A stretch of DNA of 64,000 bases. Source: Owenia fusiformis. Its lineage: Eukaryota > Annelida > Polychaeta > Sabellida > Oweniidae. Positions 1,583 to 44,544 of this stretch are shown here, in pieces. The position numbers were made by a program, and so were the translations under genes. The stretch spans positions 3,527,169 through 3,591,168 of the forward strand of contig CAIIXF020000010.1 of assembly GCA_903813345.2 (NCBI GenBank), in the 5' to 3' direction. Under the pieces are notes generated by a model. That model was not told where the DNA came from. It made no database searches and saw nothing but the letters and a program-made list of their open reading frames with translations. How positions within the stretch are numbered: position 1 is the stretch's first letter; each line of letters starts with the position of its first letter.

Positions 1583-1603
1583 ATGATGTATTGGAGCATA
1601 ATG
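1583..1603 (+). CDS. Gene A exon 1 (start codon)
   Basis: Two adjacent ATG codons begin a 7-codon segment (MMYWSIM) that ends at a strong donor (ATG|gtaagt), phase 0. Joined to 2027-2081 it forms a hydrophobic signal peptide. Gene B has the same segment at 12568-12588. The start is inferred from this join; no transcript evidence is available. Confidence 0.5.
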
Positions 1604-4600
1604 GTAAGTGAAATACTGATTTTACTGAGATTACTTTGATTGTAGTGGTCCTAAAAAAACTAAAGATATATTAGATACGTAACCAAAATCCATTGAAGAA
1701 ATAATGCTAATGAATTGAATATTTTAATAGATATATAAGTACTAGTGCCAAAGGGAAGGGACAAAAAGTTGTAATGTAAAGCAAACTCTAAATGCATACT
1801 ATTCAAGAAAAGCAAACCCCATATAGCCCAAAACCATGATATAATGTCTAATACCCCCTTTCAACCACAAGGATAAACTAGGATTAAACTAGGAAAGTTC
1901 AATTAAAAAGATCCTTTGGCCATTTTTTATCTTATTTACTGTCTGTTTTAACTGACATGATATGATCAGTTAAACACAAGAAAATCAAAATCAAATTTGG
2001 TCATCCCTCGACTTCCTATTTTCCAGATTTCAATTGTATACTGCTTTTTGGACCTCGGAACCATTGTGGCATATGGACAAGGTAAGAAGCTTATGGCTGT
2101 AGATGTTCAACCCCTCAATATGTGACAATGTAAAACATAAATTGACAAGTTGCACAAGAATACTCGTAAATGGGTCTCTACCATATGTATGGTATATGTA
2201 GAATGAGTGAAACAAAAGAGTGATTTAGGTTCATCTCTAGATTTATATCAATATTCAACAAAATTTCAAATATACTCCTACATGTAGGTAACGTTGACCT
2301 CGATTCTTTTTTTCTGAAAATCCAATACTTTGTTGGAGGCGTAATTGAATAATGTCTACAACAATACCACCATTATTGAAATCAGACAAGCAGTTTTTAA
2401 TCGCCAGGAGGACCTTGCGACTTCGTAATATAAATAAACGTTGCAGACATGAAGGTTCACCCTCATATTAAACACCAGTTAAAGGACAACTGAAATAGCT
2501 TTTCTCAACTTGCAGCTACAAAAATGCGGTTTTCTCCATTGTAAGCCCAACGTAGAGTTCTTGTGATAGCCATTATAAAATAATTGTTAGATAACTGCTA
2601 ACGATCATAAGTAACGAAATATAACTAACTGATCAATCAAATTGGCCCCCACGTGATAAGTAACGTCATATACAAAATATAGCTTTGGTTTATTGGTACC
2701 TTAGTAATCACAACGTCACGGCAACCATAGGATTGTAGTGTAAACCAAAACAAAACATTTTGGCATTATGACGTTATGGGCCACGTGGGGACCAGTGAGA
2801 GATCACGTGGGGGCCAATAACCGTCACAACCAATTCGAATATTGCTTATTAAGCAGCTATAACGATCGTTAGAGTGAAATAGTTTTCGCACTACTGATGA
2901 GAAAACATGTCCAAATACATTTATCAAAAAATTATAGGGATTCCTTTAGGTTAAAAATACCATTTCATATCTGCTTTAAATATATAAATAAAATCCAATA
3001 ATCTGTTTTCTAATTTATGTATGTGGAATGATATCATAAATTGAAATTGGAACCTTTGTTTTCTTGTAAAGATAGAAGCTAAAACTGACATCAGGGGTGT
3101 CGTGAGTGACCAAAAGTAAAAAAAGAAAATTCCTGAACTTCCCTTCACGCTGCAGTCACAACTGCACTCAATATGCTTGCCTGAATCATTATCAATTCAT
3201 TTGATAGTAATACTTTGCATGGTAGTTAATTAAAACGATAAAGTATTATCGGTGATTAGTGGGCTAAACTTGTCTAAATTCACCTCTTTTGAAGGTGCCA
3301 AAGTTCAAATTTCCACAATTTGAAAATCAGCAGTGGATAATTTTTTAGTTGATCATGACACCTCTGGTGTCAACTTTAGGCTCCAACTCCGCAAGTAAAC
3401 TACGTGATAAGATTAGAGATAGGTTGATTATCGTAAATGTATACAGCACTGAATACTGCATATGACATGTATCCCTGGTCAATTTAACTTTTCAAGGAAT
3501 TTTCGACAACAATATTCAGATTTGGCTCAAGAATAACTTTGATTTATGGCCCGTCAAAACTGCCGTGGTGACATGACTTAAAAAACTACATAACTATGGT
3601 GTTGCTCAAAAGTGAATCATGGCTAAAATGGCAGAAGATAAAAAAATGGGCCAAAATTGAATTTCGCAAGACAAAAATTGTGACTATTTTGAAAATAGGC
3701 AAGCTTTTGAAAAGTTTTCTGTATTGATGTTGAACAAAAGTAACTTAAAACAGGAATCCTATCGACAGAGGTTTTAAGGCAAATGGTCCAAAAGTGGATT
3801 TCGCGAGACATATTGACAAATCAATGTTAACCAAAATGGCTGAAAATAAGAAAATGGATATAACTTTTTGCCGTTTTTTTGTAACAAAGTATTTCATACA
3901 ACTATTTCTTACAATGACATGGATTTTTACAATGCAAGACACCTGAAATTATTTGTAAAGCTAGGAAATGGGCCAAAGGTGAATTTTGAAAATGGCGACC
4001 ATTTTGAAAATAGGCGAGCCTTTGAACCAGGAGTGATAGAGGAGTTTTCTATACTGATGTTGGACAAAATAACTTAGAATGGGAATCCTATTGACAGAGG
4101 TGTTAAATCAAATGGTCCAAAAGTGGATTTCGCGAGATAGGTGGACAAATCAATGTTAACTAAAATGGCTGAAAATAAAGATAACGGATTTTTTACCGAT
4201 TTTTTTGTAACAAAATTATTCCATATAACTACTCAGTAACATGGCTTTTTACAATGCAGGACACCTGAAATTATTTGTAAAGCTAGGAATGGGCCAAAGT
4301 GAATTTCGTGAGACGAAAATGGCGACCATTTTGAAAATAGGCGAGCCTTTGAACCAGGAGTCATAAGGGAGTTTTCTGTATTGATGTTGAACAAATATAA
4401 CTTAAAGTGTCTCACATATTCGATCAAAATTTGCCATGCAAACATGTTAGTCTACTTTACTGGCCCCCCTTGCTATAACAAGGAACAGAAAACACATTAA
4501 AACGTAAACATAAACCAATTAGTCACTTCACTATGAAAGTGAGGGGTGTTAGTGTATTAGCAGTGGTCATTTACTGTGTCAACTTAGTAACCCTTGCATA

Positions 4601-7600
4601 TCGTGCTCACTCAAGTATTGAATATTTTTTATGATCTAAATGATTGTGGTTTATCAAAAAAGTGATATATTTTAGTTAGAAATACATTAATAAATATATT
4701 CATTCAAATAGCACTAGAATGCGGGAAGAAAGAGCAATGATGACAAAATGCAGACAGAATTTTCCGTAAGGGTTTCAAACATTTCTGGACACAATCATAA
4801 ATGTACTTCATGTGTACTGTTATTTTTAGTGCTGTATTTATAGATATAATTTCACGTATTAAAATCATATTTTCCAGCAATGACTTCAAATTCGGAACCA
4901 CACCCATATCACATTTTCTTCAATAACTCCAAACATGTGTAAACATTGACCATGTGCATATAAATTCAGATTTCACGAGCTCTTTCCTATTCGAGTACCT
5001 CATACACCCCTGCATGGATTTGAGTTGGATTCGCCTTTACATTCGCCGGTACACATCGCAAACGCTGATTGGATAAAGATTGCGAGAATCTTTAAAACGG
5101 GAATCCTATCGACACAGGTTTTAAAGCAAATGGTCAAAAAAAGAATTTCGCGGAACAAAAATGGCGACCATTTTGAAAATAGGAGAGCTTTTGAACCAAG
5201 AGTCTTAGGTTTTTTTCTATATTGATGTTGAGCAAAACCAACTTAAAACGGGAATCTTGTTGACAGAGGTTTTAAAACTGGCCATATTCATACCAGGGGG
5301 TGTTATAAGTACAGTCGGTTTAAATCGAGAAAACAAAAAACTCGAATCCAGGAAGTTCATCCATTTTGTTACAGCGTCATTCCATCAAAGTATCTATTTG
5401 TGGAACAGTGATACATATTACAAGACCATGCATCGATTCTATTCCAGTAATCTGTCCAATTCAGAAGATCCCTGCAAGAACACAACGTTCGCCATGGCCA
5501 AACGGCAGTGGATGGGAATTTGCTTACAAGTTGCAAAATTACAACGTGGAAAGAGATTACCTATATTCCGTTGTTTCTTTTGGCGAAGTGACCGAATCTG
5601 TTAAGGTACTAATATCATTTAAGGATTTAAGCCCTGGACTCAGTGCATTGTTCGCTAAATCATACCCTAAAGGTGTTGTTTCCAAATCTTTATTGAATGC
5701 AAAGTTTAGGAAAAACACTTTAGTGGAATGATCGCAGGTACAATGCATGGAGTCTTGGGCTTAAATTCTTTCACACATTGCAAAATATTTTCTGCAAAAT
5801 CACCCAAAATATACAAAATCACTAAAAGAACATATTTCCACTGACACTTTTTGCAAGGGTCAAGTATTGGGAAAGCATTAATTAAACTCCTCACCTTGAC
5901 AACCATACAAAACAAATGAGTTTTTGATTATTTCATGCACTGCTGCTGTCATGTGTAATACTGTGTTTGGACTGGCTGGAATCGGACATACTTTGCCTAG
6001 CGATATGTGGATGTATTTTCAAATATACAGTTTAGGTCACGTTTGATCGGGCATATCGTAATCCACAGATACAAAAGATTGTAAGCCACGTTTAATCTGG
6101 AGTGTCTTAGTTTTGAAACAGAACATTTTAGTTCACGTTTCACCTGAGTATTATAGTTCACATATCAATCAAATTACGGGTCACGTTGGAAGGTACATTG
6201 AAGGTACCATTCGATCTGGCAATCTGGCATATGATATAGACCACGTGCATAAAATCATTTGTACATTAGGTTTAATCAGACATATCATGAAAATATCTTT
6301 CAAGTATATCTTGAACTGTGATCAAACGTGATGTGCAATCAAATATGACGAATAGTATACTGACTAAGGGGACTATAATTCACCAAATCAAATGTGTTCT
6401 ACAATGTACTGAACAGATGGACTATGAAATGGCAGATGAAACTGGACCTACGATGTATTTTAAGATTTATGGACTATGATGACCATGACATGTAAAACGT
6501 TCTACTATGAACTATACCTGTGGATTTTAAAACTCATTACTTTATTTTAGTGGATTAGTGAGGTAGAAGTTACCAGATGCAATGAGGGCAGAGACTATGT
6601 TGTAAAGTACAAATTCTATCCAGAATACTACAAGGCTGGAACTGATCTAGACATTGAGGTTCATCCTATTACTCTACTCGAGAGCACTGCTAACAACTTG
6701 AACATCACACAAACATTTTTATGTTCTCCTTATCAAAGCTCTCTAGATCTCGAAGTTTGTGACGCTGTCAGTAAGTCATAATTTGTATTGACACAATGAC
6801 TTGGAATATAATATCATTATTATAAGCATACACTATTACTGCAGATAACAATTAAATATATTGATCTCTATCAATATTTCGGGCCCTCTAAGAGATTTTA
6901 CAATTGTGTATTCCCTTAGGAAAAAACAACCATTTTTTCCGAATTTCAACCGTTAAAAACCATTGCGTAACTATTAAAAATCATTGCGTAACCATTGGTA
7001 CAACCATTTGAAATGGTTTCCAACCATTACATTTCAACCATTAAAATTTGGTTGAAAATTTTGGTTGCATATCATTGAAATTATGGAATCATTTGCAACC
7101 ATTACAAACCATTGATAGTTTAAGTTGCATTTTACCAAATGGTTGCAACTATTTTCAACCATATTATGGAAAGTATTTAGTTTAAGAATGAGAATGAGTT
7201 AAAAACATGAAGAACATACAAATGAATTGAATGCATGATTATGTTTCAAAATACAGCAGTTCATGTTTAATGGCATATTATTTCTAATTAATTGAAGAGA
7301 ATAAGGTTTATTCATTTTAGGCACTAGGAATGACTTCAAGTCATTTTCATGGGCATATTATTTCTATAAAGAATAAGGTTTATTCATTTTTGGTACTGAA
7401 TATTGCTTCAAGGTCATGTTCATAGAGATATTATTTCTATTTTATTGAAGAGAATCTAGTGTATTCATTTTTGGCCCTGGTCATTCTTGTAATTTATTTG
7501 GAAACTCTTTCTTGATTCATTCATTTTTACTGAACAATACAGCAAAACTATCTGTGGAATTTTTCTATTTTTCTCCTGTCTCAACAAAAAATGTTCCTGA

Positions 7601-10600
7601 CTAAAAATACACAGATATTATGAAACATCAAAGATTGTATTTCCTGCCTATTGTTTATGATTTGGATTAAGCTAGTGCCGAAATAACTGCCTCTTCAATA
7701 TCAAAGAAGTCTCATGACAACAATTAAGTAGATTAAACTGAAAATGTTTTCAATACATGATTTTGAAACATCAACATCCTTGTATTTATGCTTTGGATTA
7801 AGCAAGAGCCGGATTGACTGTCTTTTCTTCAATATCATTTACAAATCGAAAAATGTTAATTACTATTGGATTAAATTCAAGATCAGCAACCAACTTTATC
7901 AATATCAGTGTTTGAGTTACAGAAGAGATACCTTCAGGTTCAGTAATCAGATCATCTTGCTTCATCGAGCTTCGGACCTATCTTCAGATAGAATGTAGTG
8001 ATTGAGCGTGGGAACATGTACCTATCATTAGATGTACAATTGAGTCAACTTTAATCATAATGAATGAAAGGGAAATATCTTTGACACTTGAATAGATGAT
8101 ATTTCCTTTTACTAGACATGGTTTTATGCCTATGAGCATGAACTTGAAGTCATATTCAGTGCCAATTGCATTTCCATTATTCTCTTCAATAAAATCATGA
8201 ACTTGAAGTCATGAGTACACCTTCTTCCCTTCAATTAATTAGAAATAATATGCATATGAGCATGAACTTGAAGTCCTAACCAGGGCCAAAAATGAATACA
8301 CCTCATCACCTCTACAATCCAATGAAAATAATCAAATATAAATAATTTGGGTATGGATATCTATGGTATAGAATATGGATATGTCTCAAAATTGTATTAT
8401 GAACTTCTGAATTAAGTATTGGTTTAAAAATCTTAATGTGAATCTCATCTTATTTACTATGATTGTGTCATTATTATGGGAGGGGGAATTCAAAAATAAA
8501 TTATTCAGACAAAAATAATTCTTAAGAAGACATAATTTGTAATGATTTTATTATACTATCAAAACAAAACTTTATCTAATTGGCTGTTCAAGGGTTATAA
8601 TTAGCATTTCAATGGTTATAATTAGCTTTTCAATGGTTATAATTAGCATTTCAACCGTTGCCGCTCTGTCTGTGTAACTGTTGCTGCTCGGTCTTGGTAC
8701 CTTATCTGAATTCAATAATGTAAAATCTTAACTTGTATTTTTACAATTTTCTAAATGAAAATAAGCCTGCAAAATTAAACAAAATTGAATTGAAACAAAA
8801 AAGAATATGTATTTTCTTATAAGATTCCATCATTATTCATTCTCCTTAAGCTTATATGGTATATACAAATAAGTGAATGTTTTTTTGTTGTTCTGGAAGT
8901 GACACCAGACTTATTATTGGGAAAAAGATCCGAGACACACAAAGTCCAAAAATAAATTCTTTAATGAGAGAATAGTGCGATAGACTGCAGACTTCAGACA
9001 TACATGTATACTAACTTATAAACATACTAATAATATCATAATAACAGATTAGACTTCCTAATAATTATGTACATACATGTAGTTAGAATTGTTTCATACA
9101 TGATTTGTCTAAAGATGCTAGCAAAATGGGAAATAAAGAGACATAATCAAGTATATTTGACTTGAAGCTAGATATAATGTTTAGAGATCGGATTTGAAAT
9201 GCTCCTTAAAGGCAGAATCTGATCTATAGGGGGTGACAAAATTACAAGCAACATGCATAATTTACCTACCAATTCATTCCTTACAATATCAAATACAATA
9301 TCTCCCAAAAGATTCACAATATGTTATAAATTGATTCAAAGTGCAAAAATGAGTGAAAAATGTTTAAATTCAGTTTTCACCATATCACTTCTCAAGTGAT
9401 TTTGGCCATTTCTTGGGCCATATTTATCAAATGTGAATTCCCTTGTAAATTTTTCAAAAGTGCAAAAGCTGGCTACGCGTCTACCCATGAGTGTTGATTT
9501 CGAGGATTAATGGTTGCAATAGTTGCAGTTCCCCATCAATCGTTGCAATCAATTGTAACTGTTTTTTCAATGGGTAATGGTTGTAATGGTTTTGCAATGG
9601 TTTCTCAAAAATGGTTGCGTAACCATTGCAACTTTATGTAAAAAGGGTTGAAAAGATTGGGTGAAGTAATGGTTACGCAATGGTATTTAAAGGTTGAAAT
9701 AATGATTTTTCCTTTGATCTTCAAGGTTGAAATGATGGCTACATGATATGCAATGAAACCATTGAATTTCGGAAAAAATGGTTGTTTTTTTATAAGGGTG
9801 GTTTATTTACTATTACTTATTTCTCAATATTTTTCATTTGCTTCCGTGATTTTTTATTAAATGCATTTCCCCTTGGAATATTTCTAATCAGTGAGTCCCC
9901 GATAAGTTTCACATAACATTTTCGCAACCGAGCCTCTGGGTTGGTTGAACTTAGAATTTAGAATTGTAATAGACAAACTGATGTTTTTCTTAATGCTAAT
10001 GAAATTGCCGATCAAAAATATTTACTAACAAATCCTCATATTTCGGGCCACTGAATTATTAGAGCATAATGGTAACATTGGAGTTGTTTCACCTATTCCT
10101 ACGATTTGGAATACTCCGATAAGGTTCAACTTATTGAACACGTCAAAAACATGTTTAAAACACTGGAAATTGTAATGTACTCAGATGAAAATAATGTGGT
10201 AAAAAGGATACAATACAATAACTAATAACTGATACTTGCTCATAACTTCAATACTCTTATTTCAGACATTTTTCTGGCTTCTCAAATGTCACATGGCAAT
10301 ATTACCACCACACTGTCTATCACAGACACCGTACCTGCCTCTACAGTCACCACCACAATCGGAATAATAACAAGTCATGATTACAATATTACAGATTTTT
10401 CTCAAATATCCGCAATTTCAAATCAGAATGTATCTTTGGCCGCGACAACGGAGGGAGCTTCGAGCGAAATACAAATCACAGTCATTGATACAATTATTTC
10501 AGAAACAGTATTGAATAATTCATCGCACGACACGACATTCAGTGATCCTGCGACCCGAGCTCCTGACACAACTTCGAGTGATCCTACATCTTCTGAAACA

Positions 10601-11237
10601 ACATCCAGTGGTCCGATATCTCTTGAAACAACTTCCAGTGATCCGGCATCTCTTGGAACATCTTCAACTGAACCACCGACTCCAGAATATTTTTTCAATG
10701 ATTCGATCCCAACAGACACAGCAATCAATTTAACCTCGAAATTCCCCGAAAATGCCATCATATTTTTTAACAATGCCGATGTGAAGCTAGAAGGAACAGC
10801 TAGTATTAAAGCTGAATCATTTGATAGACTCCCAGATGAGGCACCTGGAGCTACAGCGATGGGATCTACAGTTGGGGACAAAAATAAATTACAGGTCGAT
10901 TTTCGATCACCATTTCCTAATTATGGTGGTCTGAAAGCCCATAATTAAAATATTGTCTGGATATATATCCCTTAAAGTTTGTATATTTTACATTTTGTAT
11001 AATCTCATCCACTGATGTATGGCCTCTTGTAAATTCTCTTATTTTTAACATGGGAAATCCTCACTTCAGCAAATCCACCTGTCATTTAGTTATGTCCCCA
11101 ACTGTATCTGGATGATCATTCTGGTGGGATTTGTGATGTTGATCGTTTTAGCAGATATGAGAAACCTCATTAGAGATATTAGGAAACGAGGCCTCGCAAA
11201 TTGCAAGTCTTTTTTACTATGTTCAAAATATGTATAG
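1583..11237 (+). CDS. Gene A: mucin-stalked surface protein, membrane anchor separated by a MITE
   Basis: Unrecognised family, inferred from agreement between paralogues A, B and C. Exons are 1583-1603, 2027-2081, 5448-5605, 6551-6770 and 10266-10948, all with GT/AG borders and compatible phases (0, 1, 0, 1). The product of about 378 residues has a signal peptide (about 25 residues), a four-cysteine ectodomain (about 125 residues) and a Ser/Thr-rich stalk with several N-glycosylation sites (NIT, NVS, NNS, NLT). In B the reading frame runs on into a transmembrane helix. In A a 236-bp insertion at 10869 adds a short foreign tail and a stop at 10946-10948. The helix and basic tail still exist at 11107-11237 but are out of reach unless the insertion is spliced out. 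A therefore encodes a secreted protein or is a young pseudogene. Confidence 0.6.
2027..2081 (+). CDS. Gene A signal-peptide exon
   Basis: This 55-bp exon lies between a ttttccag acceptor and a gtaaga donor and ends in phase 1. It encodes a hydrophobic run ending in AYGQ, followed by G or V across the junction, as expected for a signal peptide and cleavage region. It is conserved at 12861-12915 (B) and 33495-33543 (C). Confidence 0.6.
2483..2965. mobile_element. A-specific palindromic MITE-like insertion
   Basis: The flanks (to about 2480 and from about 2967) align with contiguous sequence in the same intron of gene B near 16,795-16,825. The roughly 480-bp block is therefore an insertion in A, or a loss in B. 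It has inverted halves sharing the GGCCCCCACGTGAT motif and contains several CACGTG palindromes. It has no ORF. Exact ends and target duplication are not resolved. Confidence 0.5.
3601..4400. repeat. Tandem array, about 320-bp unit, three copies
   Basis: The marker ATTTTGAAAATAGG occurs at about 3684, 4003 and 4328, giving a period of about 320 bp. The surrounding sequence is shared too (ATGGCTGAAAATAA, GGAATCCTATYGACAGAGG). Units are diverged by point changes and small indels. Short ORFs in it are by-products of the repeat. It lies between exon 2 and exon 3 of gene A. Confidence 0.75.
5098..5262. repeat. Detached partial unit of the 320-bp repeat
   Basis: This stretch matches the 3601-4400 array: GGAATCCTATCGACA, ATGGCGACCATTTTG, TATTGATGTTG and a second GGGAATC start. 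It is separated from the array by about 700 bp without the repeat, which suggests a broken array or a dispersed element with tandem copies. Confidence 0.65.
5448..5605 (+). CDS. Gene A ectodomain exon 1
   Basis: This 158-bp exon encodes about 52 residues beginning ICPIQKIP and ending VVSFGEVTESVK. It enters in phase 1 and leaves in phase 0. It aligns closely with 20645-20802 (B) and more distantly with 40793-40947 (C). Conserved features are the single Cys, the DYxY(S/A) block and VSF...TESV. It carries the first of the four conserved ectodomain cysteines. Confidence 0.75.
6551..6770 (+). CDS. Gene A ectodomain exon 2
   Basis: This 220-bp exon encodes about 73 residues with three cysteines (in RCNEG, FLC and EVC). 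It has alternating hydrophobic strands that look like a beta-sandwich half, plus an NIT glycosylation site. Acceptor ttttag and donor gtaagt are clear, with phase 0 in and phase 1 out. Its equivalents are 21415-21634 in B and 41532-41745 in C. Confidence 0.75.
6913..9798. mobile_element. Non-autonomous 2.9-kb DNA transposon with AACCATT-rich ends
   Basis: Both ends carry inverted termini sharing AAAACAACCATTTTTTCCG. The left begins CCCTTAGG and the right complement begins CCCTTATA. Next to each end are many copies of AACCATT(GCG) or its complement. The interior has three roughly 80-bp direct repeats (about 7262-7480) mirrored as inverted copies at about 8110-8310, so the element can fold back. 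No transposase ORF is present. The corresponding intron of gene B (near 21,780) lacks it, which confirms insertion. The target duplication is not clear. Confidence 0.8.
10266..10948 (+). CDS. Gene A stalk exon, truncated by MITE
   Basis: This terminal exon follows a ttatttcag acceptor. It encodes IFLASQMSHG, then a Thr/Ser-rich stalk with SSDP/SSETT repeats, then the juxtamembrane block conserved in B (NNADVKLE...KAESFD...PDEAPGAT). Frame is lost into the MITE at 10869, and the last 26 or so codons up to the stop are transposon sequence. Relative to B it lacks a 17-residue segment early in the stalk and one repeat unit. Confidence 0.7.
10869..11104. mobile_element. 236-bp MITE with TA target duplication inside gene A
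   Basis: It begins CAGTTGGGGACA and ends TGTCCCCAACTG, with the inverted similarity running about 23 bp. It is flanked by TA on both sides (10867-10868 and 11105-11106). Genes B (22,911-22,924) and B' carry the uninterrupted site with a single TA. This is the signature of a Tc1/mariner-type non-autonomous element. It has no coding capacity of its own apart from the accidental tail it adds to gene A. Confidence 0.93.
11107..11237 (+). pseudogene. Stranded transmembrane and tail coding segment of gene A
   Basis: The reading frame downstream of the MITE encodes a helix (WMIILVGFVMLIVLAD) and a basic tail with two cysteines, ending at TAG 11235-11237. It is homologous to 22,917-23,035 of gene B and still open, so the insertion is recent. 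It has no known way to be expressed unless the MITE is removed from the mRNA. Confidence 0.7.
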
Positions 11238-12588: not shown

Positions 12589-15500
12589 GTAAGTCAAATA
12601 CGGATTTTACGGGGGTCACTTTGATTGCAGTGGCCCTAGAAAAAACTATAGATTAGATAAACATAATCCATTTGAGAAATAATGCTAATGAATTGAATAT
12701 TTAAATAGAATAGTTTAATTAAATGGATCACTTGGCCACTTTTTATTTCTTTTTCATATACAATTTAATATGTAGACAGTCTGTGTTAACTGTATATGAT
12801 CAGTTAAACACAAGAAAATCAAATCAAAATGGGATCATCCCTCGACTCATTATTTTCCAGATTTTAATTGTTCACTTCTACCTGGACCTCAAAAGCATTG
12901 TGGTGCATGGACAAGGTAAGAAGCTTATAGCTGTAAGTGTTTAATCACTCAAATATGTGACAATTAAAAACATAAATAGACAAAAAAGTTGTACCGGGAT
13001 ACTTGTAAATGGGTCTCTATGTCGAATGAGTGAAACATCATTCACCTAGGTCGTTCTGTTTTATGATTTATATCAATATTCAACAACAAAATGTTCAATA
13101 CTTACACCCCTACGGTAACGTCGCCTAGGTAACGTCGACCTCGCTTTGAAATTTGTTAATGTCCCCGTCTAAAGTTTGAAAATATTTTTTTATCATTCAT
13201 TTACTATTTGTCAGGACTTAAAAAGTGATTTAAGAGAATTTTGAACAAAAAAAAGTTGTGAGCATTTCATTTCTCAAACATTCAAATTTCCCGCCATTTT
13301 TCAAATAAAGTTGAAATTTCCTAATCATCAAATATTTCTTAATGCATTTCAAAAAAGATTATCTTTTTAACACCAATGCAAAGATTGATTTAAGGACACA
13401 CTATTTCAATAATAAAATGCCATATTTAATGGGCCACTTCAATGTTTTAGCATATCAAAAATATTTTGAAACATTTTTTTTTTATAATTTTTTTTTATTT
13501 CAAAGAATAAGCATGTTAAAGCAATTGCAAAAAACAATTACAGTACAGTTACATGGTAAACCTACATTTAACAATTTTACAATACAGTACAGTGGTTAAA
13601 TATTTCGTCTTAAGAGACGTTATACCATTGGCATTTTTTTTATTTATTTAAAGGAAAAAATCATCAGTTTCATTTGTTTAATTTTGTTTCCATGATTTTC
13701 CACTTATCGCCTCTGCCAACCCGTTTGTCCATAATAAAATATTCCTTCACATTACTTATAAAACCTTTAAGTGTTGGTTTTAGCATAGAATATTTGCACA
13801 AATAAACATACCTTTTAAAAATACATAGCATATTATTTAAGATGATTGTCTTCTCATTTATACTCTCAGGTCCTATCAATACATTTTGTTTAGTGCATAG
13901 CAATGTGAGCTCTAAAGGAAGCCATTGTTTAATGTCATTTAATACGGCATTTACAATAGTATTCATACAGAAGATGGCAAATCGTTTCAGGATTTGCTTT
14001 ACAGAAAGTGCAAATGTTTGACTCTACGAGTCCACACATTTTTAGGTATGTATTAGTTGCTAAAAATATGTGAAGGACTTTATAAGTGAAGGATGATAAC
14101 TTAGGTTCATAGTTACTCAGTTTGTTAAGTTTATTTATCTTCTTCCAATCATTTTGATTGAGTGACAAATTCAGATCTTTATTCCATCCTTCTATATATT
14201 TTGAATTCTTTTCTAAATTCTGAACAAATTCCCAGTATATTATTTTACTAATCTTTGACTGAGTAAGGAACTTTTGTACGTGTGCTTTATTTCTTTCATA
14301 ATCAGTGATATTCTGATTATTCTCCATGACGTCTCTTAGCCAAGATTTTGGAATAGTGTTTTTTAGACTCAAATAGTCTAAAAAATTAATATTACTGTGG
14401 AATTTGTCATTGAATTCTAAAAGCGTTAGAAGTCTTTTTGAATTATGAAATACATCTTGTAGTACAATTACTTCATTGTTAACCTTTGTATTTTGCAGTA
14501 TATATTGAACATTTTGATTTTTGGTATGTTTCCCCCATGTATTACACATAGCTTGTTCAGCTCTCAGTTTAGTATTATGTTCAGCTTCTTTTTCTTTCTG
14601 TTGTGTGTAAATTCTCAGAACATGAACAAAATCTCTCCAGAAATTATTCGAAATTTTTTCCTCAATTTTTTGAATTGATTTTGAATCATACATAAAAAGC
14701 TCGTTTCTTGATCTTACATTGATGATTTTTAAAGCAGTTTCTTGCCAAGAGCCATCTCTAAGAAGTTTTTCCATCCATGTAAGTTTGAGGGATTGTTCAA
14801 AGAGCGTTGGTTCAATCATTCTCAAACCTCCATCTTCAACATTTTGAACTAATTGTGAGAAGCTTACTTTTGCTACTGTGGAATTCCATATAAAAGAAGT
14901 AAACAGTTGTTTTATTCTTTTATGATTTGCACATGACAATTTGGGTAACACTAGAAATAAATGTACTACTTTAGGCAAAACAAATGATTTAAGTACCGTT
15001 ATTTTTCCTAGTATTGATAAGTTTCTTTTTTTATATCTACTTATTACAGTTTGCATTTCCTGAATTTTATTTTCAAAATTAATGGATTCAATATTTTGAA
15101 GATCTGATGTTAAATTCAACCCGAGTAACCTAAACTTAGATTCCCATGTGAGTGGAATGTCTTCACACATTTTTTCTGAGTTTTGTTTACTTCCTAACCA
15201 TATTGCTGATGTTTTTTCTTTATTAAGTTTTAACCCTGATGTTTCATGAAACTTGTCAAAAATGTACATACAATGTCTCAAGGAAGACGGAGTTCCATCT
15301 AGGAAGATAAACGTATCATCTGCATACATGCCAACCTTTATCTCTTTATCGAATATTTTGACCCCTTTAACTTCTACATCTTCTTTAATTTTTGAACATA
15401 AAGGCTCTAGAGCTAAGATGAATGCGTAGCAAGAGAGCGAATCTCCCTGCCTGCAACCTCTCTTTAATTTGAAAAAACTTGAAAAGAAACCGTTGTTTAT

Positions 15501-23970: not shown

Positions 23971-24057
23971 AACCAAAAGTCATCATTCATGATTAATTGT
24001 GTAATTTAAAATGCAACCCTTATACTAATTGTCCAAGTAATTTATAGAAAATGTACT

Positions 24058-24531: not shown

Positions 24532-24874
24532 ACCCGTTTAGCTCAGCTGTAGCGCATGTATTTCTCATACCCTTTGCATTCGTTTGATTTCACTTCTTAA
24601 AGAGAGCTTCGTCTTCATAGTTTAACTAGACTCTGCACGCAGGGTATATTTCTCACGCAATAGGTCCAGGATTCGATCCCCGGTTCAGGCAAGACTTAAT
24701 TTGCTTATTTGCGTAAAATACTCCAGGGTGATTAACTGAGTGGTCCACTACTCGTACTTGTATTTTTTATGTATATTAGTGCACATAAAAGAACACAGTG
24801 TTCATTCAAAGAGGGGTTTCTGGGTCTATCTTCAAGGTTAATTACGTAAATTACGGGGTATACCCAAGAGGTAT
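24532..24874 (+). mobile_element. tRNA-derived SINE (copy in unit 2)
   Basis: This is the duplicate of the 23,218-23,560 SINE, created by the 1,314-bp tandem duplication and not by a separate insertion. The A-box-like and B-box-like motifs are retained. Confidence 0.6.
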
Positions 24875-25733
24875 TGCTCACCTTAATTGGTGGTAAACAA
24901 AATACAATACTTAGCTATTATGTCCCTATTAGCTTCGGCCTGTCATGAGATAGCCCTCGCAAGCTCGGACTATATTGATGACAGGCCTCGGGAATATATG
25001 CAATGGTACGGACATAATTGTTGTATTACATACCTTTATTTCATGGCTACGTTATGTTAATGACGCCACGTGTATGTGCGATAGAAATTATGAAGAAATG
25101 AAACATGACGTCGTAAGATTGTCATGGTAAAAAGTTTGGCGGCCATACAGGAATATATAGCGGAACTTCAGTTTCATTGACTTCAATACAAATGTGTCGC
25201 TAGGTATGTTACAATACAGTACTCACCAAATTAGATACGGCACGCAAATTAGATATGGCACGCAAATTAGATATGACACGCAACAACCAAAAGTCATCAT
25301 TCATGATTAATTGTGTAATTTAAAATGCAACCCTTATACTAATTGTCCAAGTAATTGATAGAAAATGTACTATCTATAATTTTGGTAAAATCTGAACACT
25401 AGCATTTTTATCTTAATATGCAATAGAGGAGTTTCTAGATATACATGTAGCTTTAAAATCTTATTTAAGTAAATATTCTAAGCCAAAATCAGGATTAATG
25501 ATGTAAATCCAGTTTTTATTTAGAGAATCTAGTTCCTGTTATCATTGTGAAAAAACATGGCCTCCAAAAAAGGAGTGATATCGTATATGAGAACTTCTTG
25601 AACACACGTTTCTCTTAAACCAGTCATTAAAAATCTAGAAATTTAACACATCGTCAATTTAATACTAGGCATCTTTTGAATGGTAACAATATAATTTGAA
25701 AATATACTAAATACTTTCATCTACAGGGTGGTC

Positions 25734-30121: not shown

Positions 30122-30129
30122 TCTCTTAA

Positions 30130-30290
30130 TATTGTAATTGTACAAAGGAAATGTTGGTTGATTTCAAAAAGTATCTTGTTAATGAAATAAAAGGTTTATC
30201 TTGATTTTTATCTATTTTGGGGGGATTTGTTCAAATTTTTTGAAATTTTTTTTAATCAACCAATAATTCCTTTGTATAAGTATAATATTT
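30130..30290. repeat. 160-bp hairpin element, copy 2
   Basis: It matches 20,982-21,142 through both arms and the ATCTATTTTGGGGGG centre. The retrotransposon at 26,843-30,121 ends directly beside it. Confidence 0.6.
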
Positions 30291-36500: not shown

Positions 36501-39500
36501 TCCTCCATATCATGAAAAAATAAATGCAGTACCATCTTTCAATATTTGAAAACAAAAAGTTCATTCTGTATGTAAACAAGAAAAAATACATTTATGGTTG
36601 ATTCATAATGAAAAATGACAAATAACATACATGTTTTTAAGTAGGGGTATACAGGGACATAGTGGAAATTCAGAAATTTAGGCCATATCCCAAAGACTGC
36701 TTCACCAATATGTAACAGAACGTCAAATTTATCATTTACACGTTTGCTGATAGGTTTATTGAAAATTATTAAACAGAGGTTTACTTCAATTGTGGCACCA
36801 TTCTTAGTTAAGATTGATGGACATACGAATATCGAATGTTGACTAAGTTACTTGGCTTGACCGTGAAAAGTACTGTTCACCGAAATATGGCGGAAACCAA
36901 AATACAATAGAAAAAACATATTGTGTGTAGCACCTATACTTGCATGTCATTTTAAATGTTAAAAATATACACAAAATGTTGATGTACTAGATGCTACTCA
37001 AAATAATCAAATTCTACACGAATACTTGCAAATATTGGCATTCATAGACTACCAGATACAAAGCGTAACAAACGAAAATAATTAAGGAAACTAAATAATA
37101 GGAATTTATATATACGGAGATATGAATAATCCATAGTTTATATTAACGGGTTGCATTATCTGAGTAGTGACAGCTGACATCGAAAAAACGATTGATTACG
37201 CATGTTCGTGTATTATCCTCATGTCCGATTACTACTTCTAAATATACACGTGGGTTATGTTATGGGAGGTTTTGGATTTGGATATGGGGTATATCCTAAG
37301 GGAATTATAGATATCATACATGTATTTCCCGAGGGAGATTCCCAATATTCAAAACCGAGCATTACATAACTAATTCATCTTATGGCTAATGAGGTTAAAC
37401 ACGTGATATCCGGGTTTGTTTTCTTAAAAGTGTTCTCATTCTCATTACTTTTTTAAAAATCCATCGATATTTAGGCCAAGAAAATTTGTATCGTCTGTTG
37501 CATTCATTTTGCTTTAGCATGATATTCGAGCAATACACTGGCAATACACTGGGAATATGTCAGCGGGGGATACACAGCGAGAGATATGTCCCGCTTCCCG
37601 AAAGATATACAGAGATTATCCTATATGAGGTTCGGGATATTGGGATTATCCCGAGGCTAATATCATATATATGCCTGAGGTCTCTCGAGAGGTACAAATA
37701 CTTCCCTTGGGAAAAACCCTGTATCCAATACCTCCCAGTAGATAACGCTTATATATCACGCTGATAACTGAAACCTTAATTGTCATAGGACAAATGGGGC
37801 TTATGCACTGGGATGTTTTGGATACAGGAATTGTTCCGGGGCCCGAATAGACCAAGATAAGATATGTTGTATCCCAAAGGATATTTCCTGTATCAAAACC
37901 GACCGTGTATAAAAGTTGTATTCCATGCATGGTGAGATTTTGAAATAATAAGCATGTCTCTCATATGGTGATGATGTTTAACAGTAGACCTTGAACTAGA
38001 ATGTATCCATTCTAAAACTTGGATGTCTTCTGTTTAGTTCCATGCTGAAATAGTTATGACGGGAATTTCCAGGGTGGGATGTAAGCCATTTTATCCCACT
38101 TGGACGTGTTACAGGTACATAAAGCCGGTTTGTAAAAACTTATATTTTCATCAGCGGGCAGATATAGCTTTACGTTCCACTCCAGTGGGCAGATATAATA
38201 TATCTACCCGCTACGTCATAATCGCCGCTCGCATATTTGTTCATAATTTGTAACGTTCGCGTAATGACTGTAAACGACAATGGGGAAAAAACAGACAATC
38301 GGGATCTGTTTGGTGGTTTAAAAAAGGGAAGGAGCATCCACTTAATCAATCAAAAATTCGAGAAAATAAATGTGGGAATATTTGAGAGAACAGGAAAATC
38401 CACCCGGTGTGAAAGAAATGATGGTCCCCGAGTGATTATGGTCCCCTTTCTTAACGGCCGTTACTGGCCCTGATTGTGTATAAGATAATGAGGGAAAGAG
38501 TTGTATTTAGGTCACCATATAAATCAATGGAGAGTAGGACCATAATTTCGCCTTCTTAATGACACCTTATCTTTCAAATAGGGGAATACAAGTACGGGTA
38601 AACAATAGTTTATCCAAATGGTCAAAAGATCGGGAACAGCGTAATGCCAATTTTGATCCTAGCCATAATGGTAGTCATAATTTTACCATAAATGCGGGTG
38701 TGCCGCAGGGGTCTGTTTTGGGACCCCTATTATTTCTAATTTATATTAACGACTTACCCGACAATCTCAACTCAAAAACTTTTATTTATGCTGACGACAC
38801 TTCACTGTATGATGCGTATGATAAAAATGAAGTCTTTTTGAACATTAATCAGCCATTACAAGATGACCTTGACACTTTTCACCAATGGTCATTACTATGG
38901 AGAATGAAATTTAAAGCTCAAAAGAGTGCTCACATAACTTTCTCGGGACAACGCACCCAGAATATTAACCAATCTCCCCTAACTTTGGGAGGTGCATAAA
39001 CATCTTGGACTAGTCCTGGATTGTAAACTTAATTTCAATGCCCATATAGATCAATTAATTGGTAAAATAACCTCCCTAATTAGACCCTTGAAAGCTCTCT
39101 GTAAATATTTACCAGGTAAGCACCTTGAAAAAATCTATAATGCCTATTTTTTACCACACTTTGACTACTGTGACATAATCTATAATAAAGCCTCCTTAGC
39201 AAAACTACAAGCTCTCGACAGACTGCATTACAGAGCAGCATGACTGTTGTCTGGTGCTATCCATGGGTCAAGTACCGACAAAGTACTTTCCTCTATTAAT
39301 TGGAAAACCCTCTCCTCGAGAAGAGATGAACATTTAAAAATTTTCTTATTCAAAGCTCGCTTCAACTGTTTCCCATCCTTTATTTGTGACCTAGTTCGTA
39401 CATATGAAATCACTCATACCAGAGACCTCAGATTCCAGCATGACTATAGAATTCCGAACCATTTCACTGTTTGAGTTCATCTTGTGGTAAATCCACTATT

Positions 39501-42500
39501 TTTAATTCCATGAAGGTTTGGAATAAACTGCCAGCAGCTATTAGAGTTGGTCAACCCATTTCAAGGTTTAAAAGGTCAGTGAGAGAATACACGAGCCTTG
39601 TCTCTGTATCAACTACTAAAATGACTAGGTGCATACCAAGGCAAATATAAATCAAATTTAATAGACTAAGAGCTGGTCTACTTTTGAACAGTCACTTTTA
39701 TTCTCATAATTTCCTGTCGGTAACAGATCCCAAATGTCAATGTGGTGAAAAATTCCAAACCACTGAACACTTTTTAATCAAGTGTCCACTGCTACTTAAT
39801 GAACGTGAAGTTCTTCTTGCAGGACTATCAGACTTGGACTGCTAACGAGATTTTGAACCATACTCAATTCAAAGGAAAACACATTTTCTATTAAATGGAG
39901 ATGAACATTTGGACTTTGAAACAAATGAAAAACTGATTGAAATCACTACTCACTATACTTTTCAAGCTATACAAAGTCTGGGACAGGGTTATTTTTAACA
40001 GTTGAGCTTGATACCACAACTTGGTACTGGGGAACAAGCAAACCAAACAACAACAACAACAAAAAAAGAAAAAGCTTCTCTGAACATTTTGTGTATTTCT
40101 GAATATCAAATTTTTCTTTATCAAAATTGTTTCAATTGCCGATAATGTTGTCCTGTCAACAATGGCAATTTGTAAAAATGTAACCGATTGATTTTTAGAA
40201 ATAAATATGAAGTATGTATTAAAAAACAAAAAAAAACATAATTTGATAGGACCTCCTACCCTTTTACACCTGGGCCAAGAAAACAAAACTGTACATGAAT
40301 ATTCTAAAATATTTACACGATTGAACAATGTGAACCAGATGACCAAGATCGGTATGGGATAAACATATTATCCTATAGTCGGGCCTCGGGAAGATATATT
40401 ATATTTGCCTCGGGATAATCCCAATATCCTGAACCTCATATAGGATAATCTATATGTATATTCCGTAGAACGGCTTGAGCGGGATATATAATTTATATAT
40501 AATGGATCCTCGTTCAACGACATATGTCTCTGAAACATCATCATGTATAGAATACTTACCTGTTTCTACACGACACGTTTTGTTGGTCGAATACCGAGGT
40601 ATGGATTCATGGGTTCAACACCCACTGTGACTGAGGCTGAGGTGGACTGGGTGATCAACCCTCAGTTGTTCACATTTCACATCTTGATTATATTGGATGA
40701 CTTCATTGTTGTAAGCCAAAGTTGTTTGTACCTATCATTCTACACGGTAACAGTAAGATAGCAGTCACACTTAGTTTTGTATTATTTTTCAGAAAAATGT
40801 CCAAGTCAACAGGTTCCACCTAGAGATGGCCTTATTTGGAGAGAAAGCACTGGGTATAAATCTGCTTACGAGTTATTGGGATACACAGTGGACAGAGATT
40901 ATCAATATGCTATTGTATCTTTTAGTGACGCCACGGAATCTGTAACCGTAAATAACATACACCATTATTTTTCAAATATCAGTTGTAATTAAATGATTAG
41001 TTTGCCTGTTTGTATACTGCATTTGATAAGTTCTGATAAAAGTGCGATTTGTGTATTGTTCTGTTTTCCATTGCGTAACATTTCAAACATTTTAGTAATT
41101 TCACATTATGAAATAACAGTTGCCTATTAAAGCTGTAGTTCCTGTAGCCTAAATGCTTGCCCGTAGCCAGCTTTTACCAGGAGGGGGAGCTTTTTTCCAG
41201 GGGGGGGGGGGCTTTTTCTCAATTTGGGCTAAAAATCATGCGAAAAATTCTCAGAATGGTGAAAAACTGTATGATTTTGAAAGAATTTCTGGCCTGGGGG
41301 GGGGGAGCTTCTGCTCCACCAGCTCCCCCTCTGGCTACGGGCATGAAATGTCATACTAGATTGACAGAGATGACGATATGGATGTACGAAATGGTTGTCT
41401 TGGAATAGTATACCGTATCCCGGGTTTTGAATATACCGAAGACACAGTTTTCTTGCTGTGCTGCACTTCAGCAGCAGCATGTGTGATGATCTTTGAGAAA
41501 AACACCTTACTGATTCTTCAATCCATTTTAGATGTATAGTGACGACGAGATCCTCAGATGCAATGCGGGCAACGATTACTTAATAAAGTATAGACACTGG
41601 CCAAACTACTATAAGACTGGAATGAATCTAGATACTAACATCCAGCCTATAACCCTCTTGGAGAGCACACAGACGACCTTGGTTGTCACCTTAACGTTCT
41701 TTTGTAACCGTCATCAAAACCCCATAACAGATTGCACAACCGTCAGTAAGATGATAATCAATTTATATTTAGATGAAAATTAGCTTGGATTCAACTAATA
41801 AATACAGCATCTCTTTAATACCTATATGAACCTCAGTTGATAATAAATTCAAACAAAGCTAGGCAATGTGTGTCCAATTCCAGCCAATCAGAATACGTTA
41901 TTTCATATTACTGCATTGCATTATATAACCAACAACCAATTCAAGGTTATTTTAGATTATAGTGAACCGATCTATAAACTGATCATTTTATAGTTGAGCA
42001 AATATCTATAAGTAGTATCATGGGGATTAACAAACCATGTGTTTATTCAAGTCAAAATAAAGATTTTGAATAATTTAAATTTAAAAGGTTAACCGGAAGT
42101 CATATCATTATTTCGATATCAGATTCGGAATCCAAAACAAATGTCCTGAATCGATAGACATGTTTTTGTGGACTTATTTTTGGGACACTATATCTCAAAA
42201 TTCGAGTAATCAAAAATGGACGGCACACTATTAAAAGGTCTCTTTCTGAGCTACACGATGAAAAAATCAAGAAAAATAGTAAACCATAACAAAGATAATT
42301 GACAAATTATTAATTTTACCTCGATTTTGACTTTTGACCTAGATACAAAATTGACCTAATGTTTGAATAAGCCAGTCACATACCCTCACTGACGATTAGA
42401 TAGATTTACCTAACGTGAAAAGAATAATAATAAGATTTTAGGCAAAACCAATCGACTCGATTTTCAATCTGGAGTCTGAATAATGGGTATGTTTTTATCC

Positions 42501-44544
42501 TTTTATTTCTGCGTTCGAGGCCGTGTCCTATGCATAGGCTTACATTTAATTGTTCCATAATAATCTCAGAATCGAATCCATGATTATTTCTTGAAATGTT
42601 CAATGTGATAATAGAATAATTATTACGTACTAGTAAATCATACAGCTGTTATAAAAACGAATTAGCGAAAATATGAACTCAAACATATAAAAAATCAAGA
42701 AATATTTTGATTCCAGATAGTTTTCTGGCATCTCAATTGCCCACGACTTACGAAACAACCCGATTCAGTGAAACTACGACTCCAGAAACAACAACAGTCA
42801 TTGAAACTACGACTCCAGAAACAACAACAGTCAGTGAAACTACGACTCAAAAAACCAGCGCTCCTATCACGCCAACCACGACACCTGCTCCCACAACAGC
42901 AACAACAACTGTAACAACTGTTGCCACAACAACAATTCCTGACACAGGTAATCAATCAGATCGTTATTAATGATTATTGCTGCCTACTTAGTATTTATTC
43001 CAGTTATAAATATCTGCAAAATCCAGAAATGGGGTATAATTTCTCCTTATACACTTAATACATATTTGCGTAATACGTAATACGTAATATATATTTGCAG
43101 GATGTCCGTTCGCTCTGCAGAAGACCACCTCTGCCAATCGTTATGGGGGATCCCATGTGGCAAATGCTACAACAGAAGAAGCATGCAAGCTGTACTGTCT
43201 CATTACACCCTCTTGCGAGGTACTTCCAGTCACAATATATCATATTAAAGGGTCTCCAAGCTAGAAACACAACCAACCTTCTTTTCCAATGAAAAACTGA
43301 GCAACGACATGCATTTTTTCCCAATATTGTGAATAACACAATTGTACTTCCAGGCTGTCGACTTTAATATACAGCGGAATATGTGTTACCAACACGCAAC
43401 AAATGGAACTGCCTCCAGCAACGCCTGTTGCAACCACTACGCCAAGACAAGCTGTCTCTGTAAGTTTCTAAAATCCACAGAGAAATCATACAAGAAAAAA
43501 ATGTTAAACGAATCATTGTTATCAGAAAAAACATCTAATATAATTATTTAATCTGTTTTGGTGTTAGTTCATGAGTTTTTCGTGAAAGCCCATGGCAAGA
43601 TTGTTCTAGCTTTAGACCTCAAGAAAGTTTTAGTCCACTCATATTGTAAAAGAACAAATGTAATTATTGTAGCTACCAATACTGTTGCTCCAACCACCAC
43701 AAACGCTACCACAACATCTATGTCCACTGTTACAGCTACGACATCTGCAACACCTGCCACCACTCGAGAAATAACAAAAGTCATTGAAACTACGACTCAA
43801 GAGATAACCACACTAGGCGAAACTACAACTCCAGAAACAACAACAGCAGTCATTGACCCTTCGAATTTAGAAACAGCAACACTCAGTGGCATTGGGAGTT
43901 CGGAAACAACAGTCGGCGATTCTATGACTTCAGAAACAGAATTAATGATTGATTCTTCGACTTTTGAAACAACAACAGTCAGTGCCACTACGAGTTTAGA
44001 AGCAACAGTCGATGATTGGACGACATTAGAAGCAACTTCGAAAACAGTCGGTGATTCTACGACATTAGAAACAAAAACTTTCAGTGATTTTATGACTTCT
44101 GAAACAGTCGATAATTCTACAATTGCAGAAACAGCAACATTTAGTACTTCTACGACTTCCGAATTAATATATAGTGATACTACGACACCCAGAATGACCA
44201 TCGGTGATTCTATAACTCCTGAAAACTCCATCGGTGATTCTTTGACTACTGAAACACAATTATTTAATACTACTACTCCGACATTAGCTGTAAAAACAAA
44301 TGCAGATCTCGATAAGATCCCTGCCATATTATTCAATCAAGAAGAAATCAAATCGGCTGAATCATTTGACATTATCCCAGAGGAAGCAGCTGGCGCTGTT
44401 TATATTGGGTCTGCATGGATGTTCGTCTTGATTGGATGTTTCTTAGCCATAGTTTTACTAGATATAGGAATTCTCACTAGAGATATAAGACGAGGTCTCA
44501 CAAATATCAAGTCGTGTGTGTGTTACCTATATGAAACAAGATGA
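33495..44544 (+). CDS. Gene C: stalked membrane protein with inserted PAN/apple-like module
   Basis: Third paralogue, more diverged. Exons are 33495-33543, 40793-40947, 41532-41745, 42717-42947, 43101-43219, 43354-43459 and 43673-44544. All join in frame and predict about 580 residues. Order: signal peptide (starting at the ATG that opens the first exon, or further upstream), the four-cysteine ectodomain, a Thr-rich stalk part 1, a cysteine-rich module of about 75 residues, a long Ser/Thr stalk part 2, the conserved juxtamembrane block, one helix, and a basic tail with two Cys. Introns around the module are both phase 1. Intron 1 (7.2 kb) contains a SINE relic and a dead LINE. The function is not recognised. 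Confidence 0.7.
34855..34995 (+). mobile_element. Diverged SINE body fragment
   Basis: Sequence such as GGTCCACAACTC, CATATAAAATAACACAGGA, TAGGCGTTTTTGGCTCTAT and AAAATACGGAATTGG aligns with the body of the SINE at 23,430-23,560. No tRNA-like head is recognisable. Confidence 0.5.
35000..37570. other. Intron 1 of gene C, no recognised feature
   Basis: AT-rich sequence with scattered short ORFs on both strands, none with a family resemblance or convincing splice context. Nothing further is visible here. Confidence 0.5.
37578..37680. repeat. Left arm of a long inverted repeat
   Basis: The sequence around ATTATCCTATATGAGGTTC and GGATATTGGGATTATCCCGA matches the complement of 40,385-40,490 over about 100 bp with few mismatches. 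The two arms bracket about 2.7 kb that holds a dead LINE. Confidence 0.8.
38545..40065 (+). mobile_element. Dead Jockey/CR1-like retrotransposon fragment
   Basis: The frame at 38,559-38,999 has [20 protein letters not shown] and [10 protein letters not shown] (reverse transcriptase). It continues after a frameshift at 38,992-39,240 ([16 protein letters not shown]) and further broken pieces ([11 protein letters not shown], then [18 protein letters not shown]). It is 5' truncated before the palm, with several stops and frameshifts. The 3' end is marked by an (ACA)n/A-rich tail at about 40,045-40,072. Confidence 0.85.
40385..40490. repeat. Right arm of the long inverted repeat
   Basis: Complement of 37,578-37,680, sharing GGATAATCCCAATATCC and the CCTCATATAGGATAATC block. 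It probably marks the other end of an element later interrupted by the LINE. Confidence 0.8.
40793..40947 (+). CDS. Gene C ectodomain exon 1
   Basis: 155-bp exon, attatttttcag acceptor, ending ACC|gtaaat. It encodes [13 protein letters not shown]...[19 protein letters not shown]...TESVT. It shares the Cys, the DYQY block and the VSF..ATESV end with A and B, with a phase 1 to phase 0 layout. Confidence 0.75.
41157..41342. mobile_element. MITE with GCCCGTAGCCAG termini
   Basis: GCCCGTAGCCAG near the left end is matched by CTGGCTACGGGC at the right end, followed inward by G-rich (left) and C-rich (right) tracts. Related G-run sequences beside CGTAGCCAG or CGTAACCAG occur at about 54,810 and 55,455, and a looser one near 56,765. 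It sits in the intron between the two ectodomain exons of gene C. Confidence 0.75.
41532..41745 (+). CDS. Gene C ectodomain exon 2
   Basis: 214-bp exon after ccattttag, donor gtaaga, phase 0 in and 1 out. It encodes ...[33 protein letters not shown] and ...FFCNR...DCTTV. The three cysteines and the LLEST core are conserved with A and B although much of the rest has changed. Confidence 0.75.
42717..42947 (+). CDS. Gene C stalk exon 1
   Basis: 231-bp exon after attccag. It begins [13 protein letters not shown], which lines up with NIFLASQMSHG of A and B, then Thr-rich repeats ([10 protein letters not shown]). It ends DTG across a phase-1 junction (gtaatc). Unlike A and B, it does not carry on to the membrane anchor. 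Confidence 0.75.
43101..43219 (+). CDS. Gene C PAN/apple-like module, first half
   Basis: 119-bp exon (acceptor tttgcag, donor gtactt). It encodes [17 protein letters not shown] followed by [15 protein letters not shown], entering in phase 1 and leaving in phase 0. The spacing of EACxxxC...PxC and the hand-over to AVDFN in the next exon resemble PAN/apple domains. Assignment is by pattern only. Confidence 0.65.
43354..43459 (+). CDS. Gene C PAN/apple-like module, second half
   Basis: 106-bp exon after cttccag. It encodes [14 protein letters not shown], then [12 protein letters not shown], phase 0 in and phase 1 out. With the previous exon the module has eight cysteines and phase 1 at both outer borders, the usual form of a shuffled extracellular domain. 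Confidence 0.65.
43673..44544 (+). CDS. Gene C stalk exon 2, transmembrane and tail
   Basis: Terminal exon after attattgtag. It encodes a long Thr/Ser stalk with irregular repeats around DSTTLET and TTSETV. The juxtamembrane block [19 protein letters not shown] is equivalent to that of A and B. A helix follows ([17 protein letters not shown]), then a tail with RDIRRGL and two Cys, ending at TGA 44,542-44,544. The open frame extends upstream into the intron to 43,558, but the acceptor and phase favour 43,673. Confidence 0.75.

Follow-up and report, generated by a model that had tools for sequence, protein, structure and literature searches.

What kind of family do three neighbouring surface-protein genes of the annelid Owenia fusiformis belong to, and what do its members share? 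The genes lie in tandem in a stretch of 64,000 nucleotides (C10:3527169-3591168; contig CAIIXF020000010.1 of GenBank assembly GCA_903813345.2), hereafter the window. A first-pass annotation had taken them for a tandem array of an unrecognised family of mucin-stalked, single-pass surface proteins. We searched the assembly of 498,259,871 bases, which comprises 525 contigs and carries TTAGGG repeats; its large contigs C1-C12 (31.9-62.2 Mb each) amount to about 477 Mb. From these searches, nearly 100 surface-protein genes appear to carry very different outer domains on one shared anchoring helix, and the three window genes appear to be a small branch of this anchor-module family.

Each window gene encodes an ectodomain on two exons (A and B), a Ser/Thr-rich stalk, a juxtamembrane block, a transmembrane (TM) helix and a basic tail with two cysteines. 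Searched against the genome, exon A gave three matches, all within the window, and exon B gave four, of which three are those of the window; the fourth, at C10:27128874, precedes the module of a Thr-rich frame by about 1.5 kb. The juxtamembrane-TM-tail part of copy 2 returned 48 matches at expectation values (E) up to 10, and three further members used as queries returned 65, 53 and 16 matches at E up to 1. A reversed L021 block (L numbers denote module loci and alignment rows) found none at E up to 10. Merging the four queries gave 93 pieces at 92 loci (copy 1 counted twice) across all of C1-C12, with a best E of ≤0.01 for at least 61 pieces, ≤0.1 for at least 75 and ≤1 for at least 90. We fetched and read the 92 loci and confirmed the module in 91, the exception being L100 (C8:15492046). 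Two more queries (30 and 44 matches) added six places, counted from the matches and outside the loci read, for a total of 98. A tandem array of an unrecognised family is thus an understatement. The ectodomain was found at four places, but the juxtamembrane and TM block, which the first-pass annotation had noted as constant, at 98, and the loci inspected showed many other ectodomains next to it.

The module resembles no catalogued family. When 45 module sequences were scanned against Pfam, no family was matched by more than two of them at E up to 0.1 (best single E 0.0048). A profile search against PDB sequences found nothing of note (best E 0.91, a connexin), a Foldseek search with the module helix gave no PDB match, and no description of a shared juxtamembrane/TM module of this kind was found in the literature searched, judged mostly from listings.

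We aligned 90 modules of about 60 residues with the help of a profile derived from half of them (45). The alignment excludes the split copy 1, the non-matching L100 and the L005 row (same stretch as L006); copy 2, entered by hand, a module fragment at 24 kb of the window and copy 3 are among the rows. A small-xxx-small pattern stands at the outer end of the TM segment in 90 of 90 rows (column 24, 80 Ala, 9 Ser and 1 Gly; column 28, 83 Gly and 7 Ala). At the inner end, 18 residues past the second small residue, column 46 is Asp in 89 of 89 rows. The spacing from this Gly position to the Asp is 19 residues inclusive in 89 of the 90 rows; the remaining one, L106, is cut short in the TM segment. 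Two flanking positions are less strict, with Glu at column 20 in 70/90 and Asn at column 60 in 59/85 rows. Between the conserved ends, Asp, Glu, Lys and Arg make up 0.2% of TM columns 29-45. The tail after the Asp is basic and has a median length of 34 residues (79 rows); net charge is zero or negative just outside the membrane in 86/89 rows and positive inside in 87/89. YxxPhi motifs occur in 37 of 79 tails. We do not favour tyrosine signalling through the tail by an immunoreceptor tyrosine-based inhibition motif (ITIM), since an ITIM-like pattern was seen in 5/79.

AlphaFold, supplied with 45 members, modelled the copy 2 module, within a 76-residue stretch, as one helix over residues 32-75, with a mean predicted local distance difference test (pLDDT) score of 83.7 and 44 residues at 90 or above. 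Along columns 20-61, the Fourier spectrum of conservation peaked at 99 degrees per residue, and its power at 95-105 degrees was reached by 1 of 5000 shuffles. The helical periodicity persisted when the strongest columns were capped (6/5000) and when columns 29-63 were taken (4/5000). It could also be followed in the TM segment alone (peak at 97 degrees, 87/5000) and in the tail alone (102 degrees, 80/5000). We therefore conclude from the conservation pattern that a single side of an uninterrupted helix some 40 residues long, running through membrane and tail and including the small-xxx-small pattern and the Asp, is constrained. One-sided conservation of this kind usually means helix packing through GxxxG-type contacts.

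To learn what precedes the module, we fetched long flanks for 20 of the 92 loci and scanned 38 frames with Pfam; nine of these were rescanned together with L010. Sushi domains above the Pfam cut-off share one unbroken frame with the module at L053 (17 stretches), L054 (12), L055 (4), L069 (1) and L010 (1), and so does a CBM_14 domain at L062. Upstream frames added Sushi at L055 (17), L066 (16) and L067 (10), Lectin_C at L059, L062 and L063, and Laminin_G_3 at L069, all above cut-off. A further domain is shared by L056 (sense 2239-2787) and L057 (sense 1523-2056), which are 38% identical over 175 amino acids (E 8e-38). It had no Pfam match, and L056 had no PDB sequence match; we take it to be lamin-tail-like in look. 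The modules of these two loci (rows L045 and L012) fall in different tree groups. Judged by alignment, the anchor is thus a homologous module of about 60 residues in fixed register, which follows several unrelated ectodomain types in the flanks read. In a repetitive frame of L066, GSu_C4xC__C2xCH and Staphylcoagulse scored above cut-off and were set aside as repeat artefacts. L069 also holds, between its LamG and Sushi frames (sense 2994-4058), an open frame with a tandem protein repeat (IDEIIFKDYIIQAKDILDEFIQYTGMCNI...).

In a module tree of 62 columns and 90 rows, many forks of which are unresolved, copy 2, the duplicated fragment, copy 3 and the relative at 27.13 Mb of C10 group together (92/80, not starred). 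The Sushi arrays fall into two starred groups, one with L021 (99/94) and one with L027 (100/97), and the C-type-lectin types stand in at least three places (L063; L015, i.e., the L059 locus; L062). A minimum of seven changes of ectodomain type was counted over 19 labelled rows, some of them labelled by eye. This pattern fits repeated, undated joining of ectodomains and module. The best-looking acceptor near the start of module or stalk frames was in phase 1 in 17 of 21 frames, phase 2 in three and phase 0 in one; Thr-rich repeats place their AG triplets in a single frame, which biases this test and lowers its weight.

We propose, with a probability of roughly one half, that exchangeable ectodomains are here set on a common anchor helix that packs against itself or against a shared partner. 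Such a type I membrane protein would expose its ectodomain outermost, in the window the four-cysteine domain, with a PAN-like domain added in copy 3. A Ser/Thr-rich, probably O-glycosylated stalk would carry it, and the C-terminal module would hold the protein in the membrane. The constrained face would serve as a packing surface for self-pairing of a member, for pairing between different members or for binding a single partner chain common to them; in this way, the shared membrane part would display and couple exchangeable recognition domains. Any signal would presumably come through the partner or through clustering, because the tails have no common tyrosine signalling motif. The accompanying ectodomains hint at binding of glycans or microbes on the cell surface, and a putative recognition or adhesion role would fit the Sushi, C-type lectin, CBM_14 and LamG domains near the module, as well as the PAN- and WSC-like matches below cut-off.

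As the chief alternative, the module may serve as a plain anchor or sorting signal. The genes would then be an ordinary lineage-specific expansion of membrane mucins and lectins, in which the module provides topology, exit from the endoplasmic reticulum and apical delivery, without a dimer or receptor partner. Thr-rich stalks in many of the flanks read, short tails without a common tyrosine motif and a charge pattern that is standard for a type I anchor are all as expected from such an expansion. Yet a plain anchor needs hydrophobicity only, and the module has a fixed register, an invariant Asp, small residues at both positions throughout and a periodicity that extends into the tail. We regard this alternative as possible, though we doubt it.

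Several observations weigh against a packing face shared by many receptors. One-sided conservation in the membrane can also reflect binding to a sorting receptor or contacts with lipids. Collecting rows by similarity inflates conservation at the heavily weighted positions, the rows were aligned to a profile from half of their number, and the reversal control covered one of six queries. Between copies 2 and 3 the module has a ratio of nonsynonymous to synonymous divergence (Ka/Ks) of 0.55, i.e., a weaker constraint than on exons A and B. The 20 flanks were picked for variety and long frames and are thus non-random, and the link between upstream exons and modules was drawn from their distance and strand rather than from transcripts. 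PAN_1 (L062, L065), WSC (L072), SUEL with Laminin_G_3 (L068) and PLAT (L058) stayed below the Pfam cut-off; L060, L064 and L070 are C-type-lectin-like by eye only (best Pfam E 0.85 for L064, no match for L060 or L070). Stop codons interrupt the matches at C1:49462067, C2:9722043, C2:9309639 and C2:2663994 (one each) and at C7:29108068 (two); with the shortened L106 row, this means that some loci may be dead or that the match overruns an exon. Finally, the first coding exon of the window genes was not found in heuristic upstream scans.

The module might also be a release device, in which proprotein convertases free the ectodomain by cutting at a dibasic site that lies about 12 residues from the membrane on its outer side. 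Columns 12-13 do hold a dibasic pair in 57 of 79 rows, but the full furin pattern R-x-K/R-R is found in a minority (19/79), and the window copies carry KAESFD or SAESFD at this place, without the pair. Release would also leave the conserved TM face unexplained. We consider this explanation improbable and do not favour furin release as a general function, since it would apply to a minority of members.

An extension of the packing model, which we consider rather unlikely, is an unrecognised receptor superfamily. Nearly 100 ectodomains would then sit on one standardised helix, and this helix would bind a partner chain common to all, giving an animal without antibodies combinatorial recognition with a shared output. 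Its at least six ectodomain types would be Sushi, C-type lectin, CBM_14 and LamG, by Pfam cut-offs, and two unassigned ones, with PAN and WSC added if the weaker matches hold. The window's four-cysteine domain and the L056/L057 domain would then be recognition folds found via their anchor.

It is the anchor, rather than the three window genes, that deserves a name. Surface families are normally named by their outer domains, and annotation therefore overlooks a family held together by its membrane part; as many as 98 loci would be entered as lectins, Sushi proteins and mucins that have nothing to do with one another. Should the shared face bind one partner, the whole recognition repertoire could be reached through that partner alone, and the conserved anchor could serve as a tag for finding unknown recognition domains.

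Known systems share parts of this arrangement. Immunoreceptors paired with DAP12 or FcR-gamma have variable ectodomains, a conserved charged membrane residue and tails without a common signal motif. The annelid proteins are alike in all three respects, but their charged residue is an Asp at the inner edge and not a Lys or Arg inside the helix, where charged residues are nearly absent. They differ from ITIM receptors in the rarity of ITIM-like tails. SEA-type transmembrane mucins have a Ser/Thr-rich stalk, one TM helix and a short tail, as have the window copies, in which Ser and Thr make up 35% (copy 1), 38% (copy 2) and 44% (copy 3) of the stalk; unlike these mucins, the window proteins gave no SEA match in the Pfam scan. 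Invertebrate repertoires of transmembrane C-type lectins and Sushi proteins, which are lineage-specific expansions, also comprise many genes with glycan-binding-type ectodomains and a single TM segment, yet they are defined by the ectodomain, whereas here the membrane module is constant and the ectodomains vary. Excerpts of a C-type lectin study report a large bivalve expansion, TM domains annotated in trees and big differences among annelid species (PMC10140915), and these excerpts make no mention of a shared anchor.

Self-comparison of the window placed three paralogous units on the + strand at 5.4-11.2, 20.6-23.0 and 40.8-44.5 kb, with GT-AG borders at the listed exons of all three. Their parts and associated features are the following, in window positions.

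5448-5605, + strand: copy 1 exon A, first half of the four-cysteine ectodomain, 80% identical to copy 2 exon A
6551-6770, + strand: copy 1 exon B, second ectodomain half, 90% identical to copy 2
10266-10866, + strand: copy 1 exon C up to the insertion, stalk and juxtamembrane block, ending ...GATAMGS
10867-11106, + strand: non-autonomous DNA element of 236 bp plus TA flanks, with 36-nucleotide terminal inverted repeats, splitting the copy 1 TM exon
11106-11234, + strand: separated TM helix and tail of copy 1 (IWMIILV...LLCSKYV), by sequence match to the module
20645-20802, + strand: copy 2 exon A, GT-AG borders, phase 1/0
21415-21634, + strand: copy 2 exon B, GT-AG borders, phase 0/1
22242-23032, + strand: copy 2 exon C, stalk, juxtamembrane block, TM helix and tail, then stop
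22829-23032, + strand: copy 2 anchor module (juxtamembrane block, TM helix, tail), query of the genome search
24041-24346, + strand: partial fourth copy with the module only (TM-only fragment), from a 1314-bp tandem duplication
40793-40947, + strand: copy 3 exon A, 51% identity in the exon A search
41532-41745, + strand: copy 3 exon B, 47% identity in the exon B search
42717-42947, + strand: copy 3 exon C, first part of the Thr-rich stalk
43101-43219, + strand: copy 3 exon D, first half of the PAN-like domain; exons D and E lie as a pair between phase-1 introns
43354-43459, + strand: copy 3 exon E, second half of the PAN-like domain
43673-44541, + strand: copy 3 exon F, second stalk part, juxtamembrane block, TM helix and tail
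44353-44517, + strand: copy 3 anchor module, 55% identity (E 2.6e-10) with the copy 2 module as query

The comparison bears out much of what the first-pass annotation had read from the window. The units are indeed paralogues, with a juxtamembrane block, a TM helix and a basic two-cysteine tail in place, and every copy has four ectodomain cysteines, of which exon A contributes one and exon B three. Splice phases are common to the copies for exons A and B; in copies 2 and 3, exon A is entered in phase 1, A and B are joined in phase 0 and B and C in phase 1, and the exon borders of copy 1 match. The copy 2 stalk, 203 residues long, has nine N-glycosylation sequons, and the description as mucin-stalked, single-pass, type I surface proteins is supported by sequence. 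Other points were not borne out. Exon order is not identical, since copy 3 has a split stalk and two additional PAN_1-like exons, and a first exon proposed at 1583 (MMYWSIMV...) meets a stop at the corresponding site in copy 2. Scans upstream of exon A for an ATG with a hydrophobic stretch and a phase-1 donor gave no signal-peptide exon common to the copies, and a block at 2307-2483 and 16643-16815 (86% alike) does not read like one. Joined, copy 3 exons D and E resemble PAN/Apple proteins (PF00024), with a PAN_1 match at E 7.6e-4, although its 19.7 bits fall below the Pfam cut-off of 21.4; exon D alone and exon E alone had no Pfam match at E up to 0.01, and copies 1 and 2 showed no PAN-like exons in the interval from exon B to the stalk.

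The insertion interrupts the TM exon of copy 1 between GS and IWM, and the uninterrupted site can be read in copy 2. Read unspliced, the direct frame of copy 1 enters the element and stops before any TM helix, and its product is probably truncated or secreted. The element has at least 42 full-length copies including itself; the others share 96-97% identity with it, with 40 scored out of 1400 candidates. It holds a donor-like CAG|GT and an acceptor-like CAG, the use of which in splicing is possible in principle. The duplication behind the partial fourth copy has two units, about 22733-24046 and 24047-25360, which are 99.5% alike.

The view that the ectodomain is unrecognised survived the Pfam and PDB sequence searches. 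Against Pfam no usable match was obtained (best E 0.072 and 0.08, far below cut-offs), against PDB sequences none (best E 0.36), and the distant relative L004 had no Pfam match at E up to 0.01. Exon B modelled alone gave four strands with a mean pLDDT of 54, too poor for a fold search; on this model, the ectodomain would be a small, possibly all-β domain. Between copies 1 and 2, exons A and B have a Ka of 0.082 and a Ks of 0.325 (Ka/Ks 0.25), and between copies 2 and 3 a Ka/Ks of 0.37, which is rough as Ks exceeds 1 and is saturating. These ratios argue for purifying selection on the ectodomain. Exon C of copies 1 and 2 has a Ka/Ks of 0.56, length differences of 14 and 10 residues and a Ks of 0.067; compared with the Ks of exons A and B, this suggests that the stalk exon probably underwent local gene conversion between the two copies (10266-10866 versus 22242-22916). 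The first-pass annotation had contrasted a fast-changing stalk with a constant juxtamembrane block. This contrast holds for copy 3 against the others and fails between copies 1 and 2, given the low exon C Ks.

A decaying array, with copy 1 and the 24-kb fragment already reduced to pseudogenes and the other two copies following, would agree with the element insertion, the TM-only fragment and the failure to find a shared signal exon upstream, but the Ka/Ks ratios of exons A and B, the intact splice sites at the listed exons and the open frames of copies 2 and 3 through TM helix and tail make it very unlikely. Both of these copies look intact except for their first exon, which was not found.

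Module loci are also found in tandem elsewhere in the genome. At G000:C2:2778838-2782023 on the minus strand, three near-identical module exons (L081-L083) lie about 1.5 kb apart, as from a recent tandem amplification of an anchor exon. Further clusters are at C4:9436864-9505098, C9:11502221-11629121 and C11:3727414-3795164; one member each was inspected on C4 and C11, and L065 (C4) has PAN-like frames upstream, L067 (C11) a Sushi array. A mobile-element origin of the module is not favoured, because the ectodomains differ and the TM register is one and the same; no dedicated repeat test was made.

Between the window copies lie retrotransposon remains, i.e., reverse-transcriptase frames or fragments at 27001-30195 (− strand), 13935-16038 (− strand) and 38538-38999 (+ strand), with RVT_1 matches at 27001-30195, 13935-15569 and 38538-38999 in the Pfam scan of window frames. 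At 49900-60500 on the − strand, the window holds exons of major-facilitator transporters, monocarboxylate-transporter-like by eye, with MFS_1 matches at 50310-50693 and 58573-58887 in the same scan.

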